Below are positions 2,436 through 63,013 of a stretch of DNA of 64,000 nt, piece by piece. Source of the stretch: an uncultured Ruminococcus sp. (GTDB taxonomy: Bacteria; Bacillota; Clostridia; Oscillospirales; CAG-272); contig CADBKZ010000018.1 in the NCBI GenBank assembly GCA_902795355.1, forward strand, positions 1 to 64,000, in the 5' to 3' direction. The notes under the pieces were generated by a model. That model was given only the letters and a program-made list of their open reading frames with translations. It was not told the DNA's origin and ran no database searches. A program made the position numbers and the translations under genes. Within the stretch, counting starts at the first letter, position 1, and each line of letters begins with the position of its first letter.

Positions 2436-3578
2436 ACCAATCAACAAACAAAAAAGGAGAAATCATGATGAAAAAAACATTGGTTATTTTTCTGGTACTT
2501 TCTTTGCTGCTCGGTATGTTTACAGGCTGCGCGGGAAATAACCCGCCGCCGGAGCAAAAGTATGCCAATGAAAAAATTTATTGGCAAGGCACAATCGACG
2601 ATGATTTTGATGATGACTTTGTTACTATTGTGATTAAATACCCCTACAATGATCGTGAATATACAATTGAAGATTTCACAGAAATCGGTTGTATTGAGGT
2701 CATTGACATGTGGAAAAAGAAAGCACCGAATCTGGCAATGATATATAAATTAATTTTGGATCAACATTCCAAGCAAAATGTTTTGGATTCTATCAAATGG
2801 TTGGAAGCACAACCATATATTCATAGCGCAGAACCGAATGTGCATGGTTGGTTATACCTTGATGAGTATCCAAACGACCCCTATTATACCGAAGATTATC
2901 AATGGGCAATTGATCAAATTGAACTTCCCGACGCATGGGATATTACCACGGGTTCAAGTATATAAGCAACTCTCTTGCAACCGATAATCAACCGTTTTTA
3001 ACCAATCAACAACAAACAAAAAAAGGAGAAATCATGATGAAAAAAACATTGGTTATTTTTCTGGTACTTTCTTTGCTGCTCGGTATGTTTACAGGCTGCG
3101 CGGGAAATAACCCGCCGACCGAGGAAGTTACGCTTTCCGAATGGGAAAAGGCACATTTGGCGATCATCACGCCGGAGCAAAAGTATGCCAACGAAAAAGT
3201 TTATTGGGAAGGTACAATCGATGATGATTTTGATGACAATGTGGTATTAATTACCATTGGTTATCCTTATAACAATCGAGAATACACCGTGGAAGATTTT
3301 GCAGAAATCGGTTGTATTGATCTCATAGATATATGGACAGAAAAAGGAACGAATATTTGGCTGATTCAAAAACTTGTCTTAAATCAAAATTCCAAGCAAA
3401 ATGTTTTGGATTCTATCAAATGGTTGGAAGCGCAACCTTTTATTCATTCTGCGGAACCAAATGGTTATTTTCAAGCCGATTTATGTGAAACCCCGAATGA
3501 CCCCTACTATTCTAACAATTACCAATGGGCAATTGATCAAATTGAACTTCCCGACGCATGGGATATTACCACGGGTTC
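2436..3578 (+). repeat. Imperfect tandem duplication of leader plus lipoprotein/propeptide region
   Basis: Unit 1 is about 2436-2955 and unit 2 about 3001-3578. They share the leader ACCAATCAAC...AAAAGGAGAAATCATGATG, the signal peptide and the whole propeptide region, ending at the same GATATTACCACGGGTTC. Unit 2 has 54 extra bases (18 codons) after the lipobox. About 45 bp (2956-3000) unrelated to either unit lie at the junction and contain the stop of unit 1. The units have diverged at many codons with few frame changes, so the duplication is not fresh. Confidence 0.85.
2465..2965 (+). CDS. Propeptide-only lipoprotein, truncated tandem copy of the following subtilase
   Basis: A 166-residue product with a type II signal peptide (MMKKTLVIFLVLSLLLGMFTGC, lipobox Cys22 shown as LLGMFTGC) and a domain beginning TIDDDF and ending LEAQPYIHSAEPN, collinear with residues of the protease at 3034-4914. 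It stops at TTGSSI just where the catalytic domain of its neighbour starts, so no Asp/His/Ser triad is present. The frame is intact over its length with a good RBS (AAGGAG). It may be a degenerate duplicate or a retained lipoprotein carrying a subtilase propeptide that could chaperone or inhibit the mature protease; the second reading is inference. Confidence 0.75.
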   Translation: MMKKTLVIFLVLSLLLGMFTGCAGNNPPPEQKYANEKIYWQGTIDDDFDDDFVTIVIKYPYNDREYTIEDFTEIGCIEVIDMWKKKAPNLAMIYKLILDQHSKQNVLDSIKWLEAQPYIHSAEPNVHGWLYLDEYPNDPYYTEDYQWAIDQIELPDAWDITTGSSI

Positions 3579-4914
3579 CTCAAACATTACCGTTGCCGTA
3601 ATGGACTCGGGAATTCGTGCAAACCATTATGATTTGCGAAACCGAGTAGATAGCAATTTGAGCAAATCCTTTGTATCTGATAATCAAACCGATAACACAG
3701 GATTAGAGGACACACTCGGACACGGAACAAATGTTGCTGGCGTGATCGGTGCAATTACGAATAACGCAACCGGTATTGCGGGAGTTTGTTGGAATGTAAC
3801 GCTGGTTTCTTTGAGAGTTACGGTAAACGGCACTGACTTTAATCCAACGGCAATCGCAAGTGCAATTAACTATGCAAAAGATAATGATATTGACATTATC
3901 AACTGCTCCATGAGCTGGACAGTTAACTATAATACAATTCGACTTGCCATTCAAAACTATTCCGGTCTGCTTGTATGCTCTGCCGGAAATGACAACGAAA
4001 GCAGCGATTCTAATTACATTTATCCCGCCAGATATAATTTTGACAACATCATTGTAGTCGGAGCCAGCGATTCGAGCGATGCAAAAGCAACTTTCTCCAA
4101 TTACGGAGCTGCGACTGTGGATTTGTTTGCACCGGGTGTAAACATTTATACCACCGCCATTGACCCGGATGCGCCGCTCAATATCAACTATTACAAATCG
4201 GTCAGCGGAACATCTTTCTCTGCGCCGCTGGTTGCAGGGGTTGCCGCCCTGATCCTTTCGGTGTACCCGAACTACCAGCCCTATGATCTCTATGTTTCCA
4301 TCTGCGATAACGTTGACGTTTGCAGCGGATTGAGCGGCTATTGCCTGACGGGAGGGCGATTGAATGCCGCCGCCGCTTTGGAAAATGCACACACGCACAC
4401 CCATGTTTATGAATATAGATATGGAAATGCCCGCACCGAAACCGACCATACGGAAACCTGCGTTCATTGCGGCGTAACGCGGGTTGTGGATCACTCTTTG
4501 AGTTATAATAATGAGGATAGCTCGGAACATCTCTGCTTTTGTACCGTATGCTATATAGAATTCGCCGAAAGCCACACTTTTTCTTCCGCATATTCCTATA
4601 ACAGCTCCCAGCACTATAAAGCCTGCGTTTGCGGGCGTCAAATTGACGCCGCAAACCACACCCTCACTTATACGAATATCGATATGTCGATCCATTCCAA
4701 ACAATGCGATATCTGCGGATATTACGCAACCGAGGACCATTCATGGTCATTGGAAACCTTTGGAGTTGATCCGGTGGAAGAGCTGGAAACAATTGTGTTC
4801 GACCCCGGAGAATTGGCCGAGCCGGAATACCGGATACGTTACAGATGCTATAAATGCAATGCGCTTTCCCCGTATAATCCAGCGCCCTTTGCGGTGGATC
4901 CCGAATCCGAATGA
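3034..4914 (+). CDS. Lipoprotein subtilisin-like serine protease (S8) with C-terminal His/Cys repeats
   Basis: A 626-residue surface subtilase. Order: type II signal peptide with lipobox Cys22; propeptide-like domain ending in SAEPN around residue 145; S8 catalytic domain with Asp191 (VAVMDSG), His230 (LGHGTNVAG), oxyanion Asn319 (CSAGNDN) and Ser394 (SGTSFSAP); then about residues 450-610 hold five related units, each with a starting His, Tyr-rich strand and a CxxC or CxC pair (CVHCG, CFCTVC, CVCG, CDICG, CYKC). Those units resemble small metal-binding ribbons. ATG 3034 has AAGGAG 6 nt upstream. It should be exported and lipid-anchored (lgt is at 39758-40843). Substrate is unknown. Confidence 0.92.
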   Translation: MMKKTLVIFLVLSLLLGMFTGCAGNNPPTEEVTLSEWEKAHLAIITPEQKYANEKVYWEGTIDDDFDDNVVLITIGYPYNNREYTVEDFAEIGCIDLIDIWTEKGTNIWLIQKLVLNQNSKQNVLDSIKWLEAQPFIHSAEPNGYFQADLCETPNDPYYSNNYQWAIDQIELPDAWDITTGSSNITVAVMDSGIRANHYDLRNRVDSNLSKSFVSDNQTDNTGLEDTLGHGTNVAGVIGAITNNATGIAGVCWNVTLVSLRVTVNGTDFNPTAIASAINYAKDNDIDIINCSMSWTVNYNTIRLAIQNYSGLLVCSAGNDNESSDSNYIYPARYNFDNIIVVGASDSSDAKATFSNYGAATVDLFAPGVNIYTTAIDPDAPLNINYYKSVSGTSFSAPLVAGVAALILSVYPNYQPYDLYVSICDNVDVCSGLSGYCLTGGRLNAAAALENAHTHTHVYEYRYGNARTETDHTETCVHCGVTRVVDHSLSYNNEDSSEHLCFCTVCYIEFAESHTFSSAYSYNSSQHYKACVCGRQIDAANHTLTYTNIDMSIHSKQCDICGYYATEDHSWSLETFGVDPVEELETIVFDPGELAEPEYRIRYRCYKCNALSPYNPAPFAVDPESE

Positions 4915-62002: not shown

Positions 62003-63013
62003 AAAAACCGCCGTTTTCTTACCACGTATCGCAATTTTCCAAAACCCATATTCCTTTTTTGTTTTTTGAAAGGAGAATGCCCATGAAAGCCCTGCTCCGC
62101 TTTCTTTCCGCCGTCCTGCTGCTTGCCTGCCTTTCGGGCTGCGCGTGGTCGCCGCCCGCCGACGACGAGGACGATTGGGATCCCAATGTGGAATCGCGCT
62201 ACCAAAAGAAGCAGTGCGCCGCCACGATTGACGAGGATTTCAGCGGCAGGCATGTCTTGTTGATCCTTTACCCGCGGTTCAACAAAACCGCATATGCCCC
62301 GCTGGATTTTTCCGAGGTCAGTTGTGTTCAGGCGTTGGATCTTTCCACAGATCTTTCGCCCAACGCCCCGCAAAGAATGCTCTGTTTGGTTTTGCCCGAA
62401 AATTCCAAGCAAGGAGTTTTGGATGCGATTGCCGTTCTGGAACAGCGCGACGATGTTTACCGCGCGGAGCCGAACCGCTACTTTGATATTGACGCCATGT
62501 TCGCCGCGCACAAAGGGCTGCTCCTCGGCGACGCGCAGGCCCTTTCTTCCAAACTGCAAGCCGAAATGAAAGACGTGTATGTGCAAACGGCCTGCAAACC
62601 ACACAACGATTACGTGCTGGAAAGACATCTTTACGACGAGGTGATTACCGCCGATCAGATCCGCTTTGTGTTTATCGGGCAGTTCCACGGCGCGTGCGCG
62701 GTGTTCTCCATAGGCGGGCCTTTCGGCTATACGCAGGCCTTGCGGACGGACACGGTGGACGGCGTTCCGTTTTACTATTCGAGCGGCCACGGCATGGATG
62801 TTTACTGCAACGGCGCATTCTACACCGTTTCCGAAGCGTTTGAAGCGAACATTCTGACGCACGCCGACCTTGTCAAACTCCTGCATAACTACACCATAAA
62901 ATCCCGATTGATCGGTTCGCCCGCCTCGCAGGGTTGGTAAAACCGCCGTTTTCTTGCCACATATCGCAATTTCCCAAAACCCATATTCCCTTTTTCTGTT
63001 TTTTGAAAGGAGA
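62003..63013 (+). repeat. Direct repeat of a ~73-bp leader flanking the propeptide-only lipoprotein gene
   Basis: 62003-62076 and 62938-63013 share AAAACCGCCGTTTTCTT, CGCAATTT, CCAAAACCCATATTCC and TTGTTTTTTGAAAGGAGA-like segments with only a few differences. The second copy begins inside the stop codon of the lipoprotein gene and supplies the SD of malic enzyme. Confidence 0.85.
62083..62940 (+). CDS. Lipoprotein with a subtilase-propeptide-like domain, no protease
   Basis: 285 residues: signal peptide with lipobox Cys20 (LLACLSGC), a domain (about 40-130: ATIDEDF, YPRFNKTAYAPLDFSEVSC, LVLPENSKQGVLDAIAVLE, DVYRAEPN) collinear with the propeptide of the subtilase at 3034, then an unrecognised 150-residue domain (HNDYVLERHLYDEVITADQI, FFYYSSGHGMDVYCNGAFYT-like in parts YYSSGHGMDVYCNG). 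No Ser/His/Asp triad is seen. ATG 62083 is preferred over 62077 because AGGAG is only 1-2 nt from the latter. A surface inhibitor or chaperone of subtilases is a possible role (inference). Confidence 0.82.
   Translation: MKALLRFLSAVLLLACLSGCAWSPPADDEDDWDPNVESRYQKKQCAATIDEDFSGRHVLLILYPRFNKTAYAPLDFSEVSCVQALDLSTDLSPNAPQRMLCLVLPENSKQGVLDAIAVLEQRDDVYRAEPNRYFDIDAMFAAHKGLLLGDAQALSSKLQAEMKDVYVQTACKPHNDYVLERHLYDEVITADQIRFVFIGQFHGACAVFSIGGPFGYTQALRTDTVDGVPFYYSSGHGMDVYCNGAFYTVSEAFEANILTHADLVKLLHNYTIKSRLIGSPASQGW

Follow-up and report, generated by a model that had tools for sequence, protein, structure and literature searches.

A stand-alone subtilase propeptide domain in a predicted surface lipoprotein of an uncultured Ruminococcus

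The stretch of DNA analysed here, which we call the window, comprises the first 64,000 nucleotides of contig CADBKZ010000018.1 from an uncultured Ruminococcus sp. (assembly GCA_902795355.1). It carries three genes, named here by their first base and all on the forward strand, whose products share a domain. Gene 62083 (62083..62940, +) encodes a lipoprotein of 285 amino acids counted from ATG 62083, which is the likely start; the alternative ATG 62077 lies too near the GGAG. The product consists of a signal peptide, the lipobox LSGC, an acidic linker, a propeptide-like domain (62200..62493, +) that ends in AEPN-RYFDID, and a C-terminal domain (CTD; 62539..62937, +, including its leading helix) with a conserved core at 62671-62880, as delimited with a profile from relatives. 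Direct reading of the sequences gives the lipoboxes of bacterial lipoproteins in all three products, LSGC in 62083 and FTGC in both 3034 and 2465. A preliminary description of this DNA had the coordinates, lipoboxes and common motifs of the three genes right.

Gene 3034 (3034..4914, +) encodes a thermitase-like lipoprotein subtilase of family S8 (PF00082, E 6e-51). The S8 motifs are in place, with the catalytic Asp in VMDSG, His in GHGTNVAG and Ser in SGTSFSAP, and the C-terminus carries Cys/His-rich CxxC repeats. From thermitase residue 2 onward, the mature domain can be aligned with that enzyme (TPNDPYY vs TPNDPYF). The shared domain of this protease, placed at 3196..3480 (+) by the shared motifs and the thermitase alignment, fills the stretch between the lipobox and the mature domain and stops just short of the thermitase-aligned residues. 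Gene 3034 is the sole S8 gene detected in the genome, which is 97.4% complete.

Gene 2465 (2465..2965, +) encodes a signal peptide, the propeptide domain and 31 residues more before its stop codon. These last 31 residues (PNDPYY...QWAIDQIELPDAWDITTGSSI) correspond to the beginning of the mature protease. Aligned with 3034 at the DNA level, the gene shows 84 identical bases at the start of the signal-peptide coding region and 77 of 87 identical bases in the tail; at the very end 55 identical bases run to position 2954, where identity is abruptly lost, with a stop codon no more than ten bases further on. The propeptide regions of the two genes have diverged, with about 1.0 synonymous (dS) and 0.20 nonsynonymous (dN) substitutions per site. 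We do not take the resulting dN/dS of 0.19 as selection on the truncated copy, as the divergence may mostly predate the truncation and the ends look converted. Judged from these alignments, gene 2465 is a truncated tandem duplicate of the protease gene. The preliminary description had counted two of the three proteins as propeptides without a catalytic domain and proposed both as regulators. The count stands for 62083 and fails for 2465, which we rejected as an independent regulator. Among the three window genes, 62083 alone encodes a distinct protein with an architecture of its own. The protease locus 2465-4914 has a low G+C content (0.38-0.44 vs 0.57 for the window), which suggests a recent acquisition.

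Gene 62083 lies between a fumarase gene and a malic enzyme gene and is flanked by a 73-bp direct repeat whose two copies, 91.8% identical, are the only ones in the genome. Copy 1 (62006..62080, +) forms the leader and ribosome-binding site of 62083, and copy 2 (62941..63013, +) is the leader of the malic enzyme gene. The fumarase and malic enzyme genes of the close relatives G014 and G017 are adjacent, with no 62083-like gene between them. This adjacency, together with the flanking repeat, indicates that 62083 was inserted or gained between the two genes, and the leader appears to have been duplicated in the process. Searches of plasmid and phage collections gave no match.

The similarity of the three domains is far beyond chance. 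A profile of 28 relatives that includes no window sequence gives 73 bits for 2465, 63 bits for 3034 and 62 bits for 62083, whereas the highest-scoring of 2,000 shuffled versions of the 62083 domain reaches 8 bits in the same profile. The domain can be aligned along its whole length in all of them. Nine of 31 family members match Pfam PF22148 (Fervidolysin_NPro-like) at E <=0.1, and two relatives, L108 (29.9 bits) and L090 (21.7 bits), score above its cut-off of 21 bits. These matches mainly cover the C-terminal part of the profile, and most span only part of it. The window copies have no direct Pfam match and are tied to the PF22148-matching relatives through the profile. Pfam Inhibitor_I9 matched one relative only, at 14.5 bits against a cut-off of 21.2, and none of the window copies; profile searches of the propeptide domain against PDB sequences gave nothing meaningful. 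By position, the domain lies between the signal peptide and the start of the catalytic domain in 3034 and in 35 further proteases, some of them split or truncated.

The AlphaFold2 model of the 62083 domain, built from 31 natural sequences, has a mean pLDDT (predicted local distance difference test) of 90.6 and the order strand-helix-strand-strand-helix-strand, which is the topology reported for subtilase propeptides (PMC6993865). An unrelated fold, which the preliminary description had named as an outcome that would overturn its proposal, was thus not obtained. Position, PF22148 matches in relatives and predicted fold together support the shared domain as a subtilase propeptide, as that description had claimed. 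In the Plasmodium inhibitor SUB1-ProM, Glu146 and Asn148 occupy helix-capping places (PMC6993865). An hhalign comparison with the subtilisin E propeptide places AEPN on the helix-capping segment VEED, although the match is weak (E 0.0028, probability 11%). The capping Glu is kept in 7/14 stand-alone and 7/16 protease copies of our alignment (A6), and the Asp/Asn in 10/14 and 14/16, respectively. As retention is similar in both classes, the capping motif cannot separate stand-alone from protease copies. Gene 62083 retains both capping residues of AEPN.

The search covered 118 relatives, 295 genomes from the order and 395 from the family, as well as a named genome collection. A first scan of the genome contigs with full-length 62083 found no relatives, and the initial profile search was dominated by signal-peptide matches; the later searches used sequences without signal peptides. 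Of 67 classified propeptide domains, 36 lie in proteases and 31 outside proteases. L119 was counted as a protease in the tree and is moved to the non-protease group by the reading of its DNA; the conclusion drawn from the tree does not depend on it. Several of the stand-alone copies adjoin subtilase genes. L102 has three tandem propeptide lipoproteins directly upstream of a subtilase that is frameshifted in the assembly, and the trio shows dN/dS of 0.16-0.25 at dS near 1, which is consistent with selection. A 185-residue propeptide protein stands upstream of the protease in L093, a 231-residue propeptide lipoprotein stands ahead of the protease in L120, the order is protease and then propeptide protein in L096, and a propeptide-SLH-propeptide protein has a subtilase next to it in L092. 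L097 belongs with these loci. At L097:2444-4339, the extracellular end of a BlaR1-type M56 membrane protein bears a propeptide domain, and directly downstream of this gene lies a subtilase whose propeptide is closely related; the membrane protein is possibly a sensor of free protease. Four tandem lipoproteins with one propeptide domain each occur at G304:C132 (L070, L083, L088, L089), in a genome that is 68% complete and has no detected S8 gene.

The tree of the propeptide domains is poorly resolved. Its well-supported branches still force at least seven changes between the protease and stand-alone states, and a stand-alone copy and the propeptide of the adjoining protease form sister pairs in 2465/3034, L093, L097 and L067 (G110). 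Stand-alone propeptides therefore arose repeatedly, often through local duplication. Intermediates are seen in the truncated copies 2465 and L105 and in proteases interrupted by a single in-frame stop close to the junction of propeptide and catalytic domain, namely L118 (TAG 1435-1437), L129 (TAG 1885-1887) and L134 (TAA 1801-1803). We had considered these three as stand-alone copies and rejected them as proteases with a single in-frame stop. Intact propeptide proteins without a protease are recurrent in gut Clostridia, have several origins and often stand beside proteases, several of them in apparent operons with a subtilase. The preliminary description had seen stand-alone propeptide lipoproteins as a family, a view borne out here, and its other refuting outcome, that all such copies in relatives would be frameshifted, did not occur.

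These data also bear on whether 62083 itself might be a decayed, functionless remnant of a protease. The genome does contain such a truncated copy in 2465, and relatives often have genes that are split or cut short close to the end of the propeptide. The frame of 62083 is nevertheless intact, with a lipobox, a propeptide and a complete CTD, its domain is predicted to fold with high confidence, and propeptide-CTD proteins recur in G050, G039 and other genomes, so we regard decay as very improbable.

No match to the CTD of 62083 was found in Pfam, among PDB sequences or by Foldseek, in agreement with the added C-terminal domain of unknown type in the preliminary description, and the CTD is a candidate for a new domain family. 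Its AlphaFold2 model has a pLDDT of 79, with the core above 90. CTD profile matches occur in 49 of 295 family genomes, mostly distant from proteases. Among the 64 S8 loci of genomes with CTD matches, however, six carry a CTD in the gene itself or no more than 1 kb away from it, where 0.48 would be expected under uniform placement (P about 1e-5); four of the six genomes (G038, G482, G527 and G582) supplied rows to the profile, and G391 and G401 did not. Outside this test, CTD genes directly adjoin subtilases in L099, L101, L103 and L041, and L130 has CTD, propeptide and S8 domains fused in one gene. Since CTD and propeptide share no homology, the linkage of the CTD to subtilases cannot be put down to tandem duplication. 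L119 is the best match of the 62083 propeptide half (36%, 4e-21) and the second best of its CTD (26%, 1.5e-8). It is a CTD-propeptide open reading frame that closes with a stop of its own; a ribosome-binding site comes next, and then a new start and a partial S8 gene. The module order of L119 is opposite to the propeptide-CTD order of 62083. CTD lipoprotein genes also alternate with half-length propeptide open reading frames upstream of an intact subtilase at L105:1465-3832. The source genome has a second CTD protein of 288 amino acids without a propeptide domain (G000:C4:155325-155522, L004). Tandem repeats of the CTD within larger proteins are found in G457, G527, G516, G555 and G050, with up to 20 matches per genome.

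A subtilase propeptide usually inhibits its own enzyme strongly and guides its folding (PMC6993865). Gene 62083 would encode a lipid-anchored surface protein composed of two accessory modules of the subtilase system, the propeptide and the CTD. As the lipid of 3034 is on the propeptide side, maturation would free the catalytic part from the membrane unless it is held. We propose that the propeptide domain of 62083, helped by the CTD, captures the matured 3034 protease. The sheet of the domain would pack on two surface helices of the catalytic domain, the AEPN residues would cap these helices, and the strand RYFDID would point toward the active site. The protease would then be both restrained and tethered to the cell surface. 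Binding of 62083 to the mature catalytic domain of 3034 is the most likely of the readings weighed here, and we hold it tentatively. It draws on the homology and predicted fold of the domain, the lipobox, the finding that both modules are linked to subtilases among relatives, and the single detected subtilase, from which 3034 may be taken as the natural partner. Propeptide-only and propeptide-protease genes also co-occur within the family above expectation (5/11 vs 16/395, P 2e-5; non-adjacent cases only, 3/9, P 0.004), with the reservation that these P values ignore kinship and that the hand-made lists predate the reclassification of L119. The propeptide family was not found in 34 other genomes of the same genus, where matches were to the signal peptide only, and 62083 and 3034 are therefore lineage-specific accessories.

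Several observations weigh against such a partnership. The two genes are 58 kb apart, and the neighbours of 62083 are unrelated metabolic genes. The Foldseek matches of the 62083 domain are generic ferredoxin-like folds, with no propeptide among the 50 matches listed, and thus the fold by itself is not specific to propeptides. The adjacency of propeptide-only genes to proteases may reflect tandem duplication alone; since duplication yields adjacency for free, we set it aside as weak functional evidence and used the adjacency of the CTD instead. Even so, 84 of the 90 CTD loci are not near an S8 gene. Finally, seven genomes with propeptide-only proteins (G035, G039, G050, G281, G304, G466 and G588) have no detected S8 gene. 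Their completeness is 68-97%, with two above 90%. Unless the gene was missed, the propeptide-only proteins of these genomes cannot regulate a subtilase of their own, and regulation of the own protease cannot be the rule across the whole propeptide-only family.

The last point could mean that surface proteins have adopted the propeptide fold as a general module, alongside CTD, SLH, dockerin or sensor domains, and that it has ceased to act on any protease. Fusions of the propeptide domain to SLH, dockerin and BlaR1-type M56 domains in relatives speak for this, as does the capping Glu, kept in just half of the stand-alone copies, though protease copies likewise keep it in 7/16. Proximity to subtilases is repeatedly seen, however, and the CTD-subtilase linkage is inexplicable by duplication. 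Moreover, 62083 retains AEPN, and the single subtilase detected in its genome is of the same propeptide type. We consider reuse of the module a lesser possibility. The genomes without a detected S8 gene would also be accounted for if 62083 and its like protected the cell against subtilases that come from neighbours or the host animal. Some subtilase propeptides do inhibit heterologous subtilases (PMC6993865), but SUB1-ProM had no inhibitory effect on subtilisin Carlsberg or on PfSUB2, which shows that cognate selectivity can be high (PMC6993865), and pairing with an own subtilase is frequent in the relatives. Such a protective inhibitor appears unlikely.

A partner of 3034 might also act without inhibiting it. 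In the dentilisin complex of Treponema denticola, the acylated subtilase PrtP relies on partner lipoproteins, whose proposed role is to anchor the complex, and it requires one of them, the operon-encoded PrcB (PMC8167434). By analogy with PrcB, 62083 might act in trans as a chaperone, helping a subtilase to fold or stabilising a complex without inhibition. NCBIfam ties 3034 to the PrtP equivalog, but only below the cut-off (82.4 against 300 bits), and 3034 does not class as dentilisin-type. The likeness to dentilisin extends to the arrangement and no further, and 3034 has its own propeptide, which makes a second chaperone unnecessary in principle. We think this role still less likely than protection.

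Capture and restraint of 3034 by 62083 would be one case of a modular surface system in gut Clostridia. Lipoprotein-borne propeptides, freed by repeated duplication and truncation, would together with the CTD capture, restrain and re-anchor matured subtilases. The propeptides would be reusable trans-acting parts, fused even to a BlaR1-type sensor that could read the state of the protease. This wider picture is speculative, and we see it as possible but doubtful. If true, a recurrent family of bacterial lipid-anchored proteins, joined to a hitherto undescribed domain with linkage to these proteases, would show surface control of secreted subtilases in gut bacteria, and local duplication of a protease followed by truncation would be a clear route for the birth of such inhibitors. 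Two domains that annotation now leaves hypothetical are defined as well.

Known systems resemble the proposed one in part. Thermitase and other S8 subtilases align with 3034 from its mature start, which is predicted; unlike them, 3034 is a lipoprotein with added C-terminal repeats. The fervidolysin-type prodomain PF22148 belongs to the same sequence family, with relatives above its cut-off, whereas many copies here stand without a protease. The dentilisin system PrcB-PrcA-PrtP likewise has an acylated subtilase that works at the cell surface together with partner lipoproteins (PMC8167434), yet PrcB is described as without homologues outside oral treponemes (PMC8167434). A propeptide fold without a protease, as in 62083, is also found in the stand-alone inhibitors of MEROPS family I9 (Pleurotus POIA1, yeast proteinase B inhibitor and Arabidopsis SPI-1) and in the propeptide mimics Toxoplasma MIC5 and Plasmodium SUB1-ProM. 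The gene of SUB1-ProM adjoins subtilase genes, and its Glu-x-Asn/Asp cap is comparable to the AEPN of 62083 (PMC6993865). Our literature search, itself weak evidence of absence, found no description of bacterial lipid-anchored stand-alone propeptide inhibitors. The examples named, a handful of cases, are eukaryotic, whereas the family of 62083 is bacterial, lipid-anchored and combined with other domains, and may share their inhibitory action. Stand-alone propeptide inhibitors are thus known from fungi, yeast, plants and parasites, and a bacterial lipid-anchored form would be a new one.
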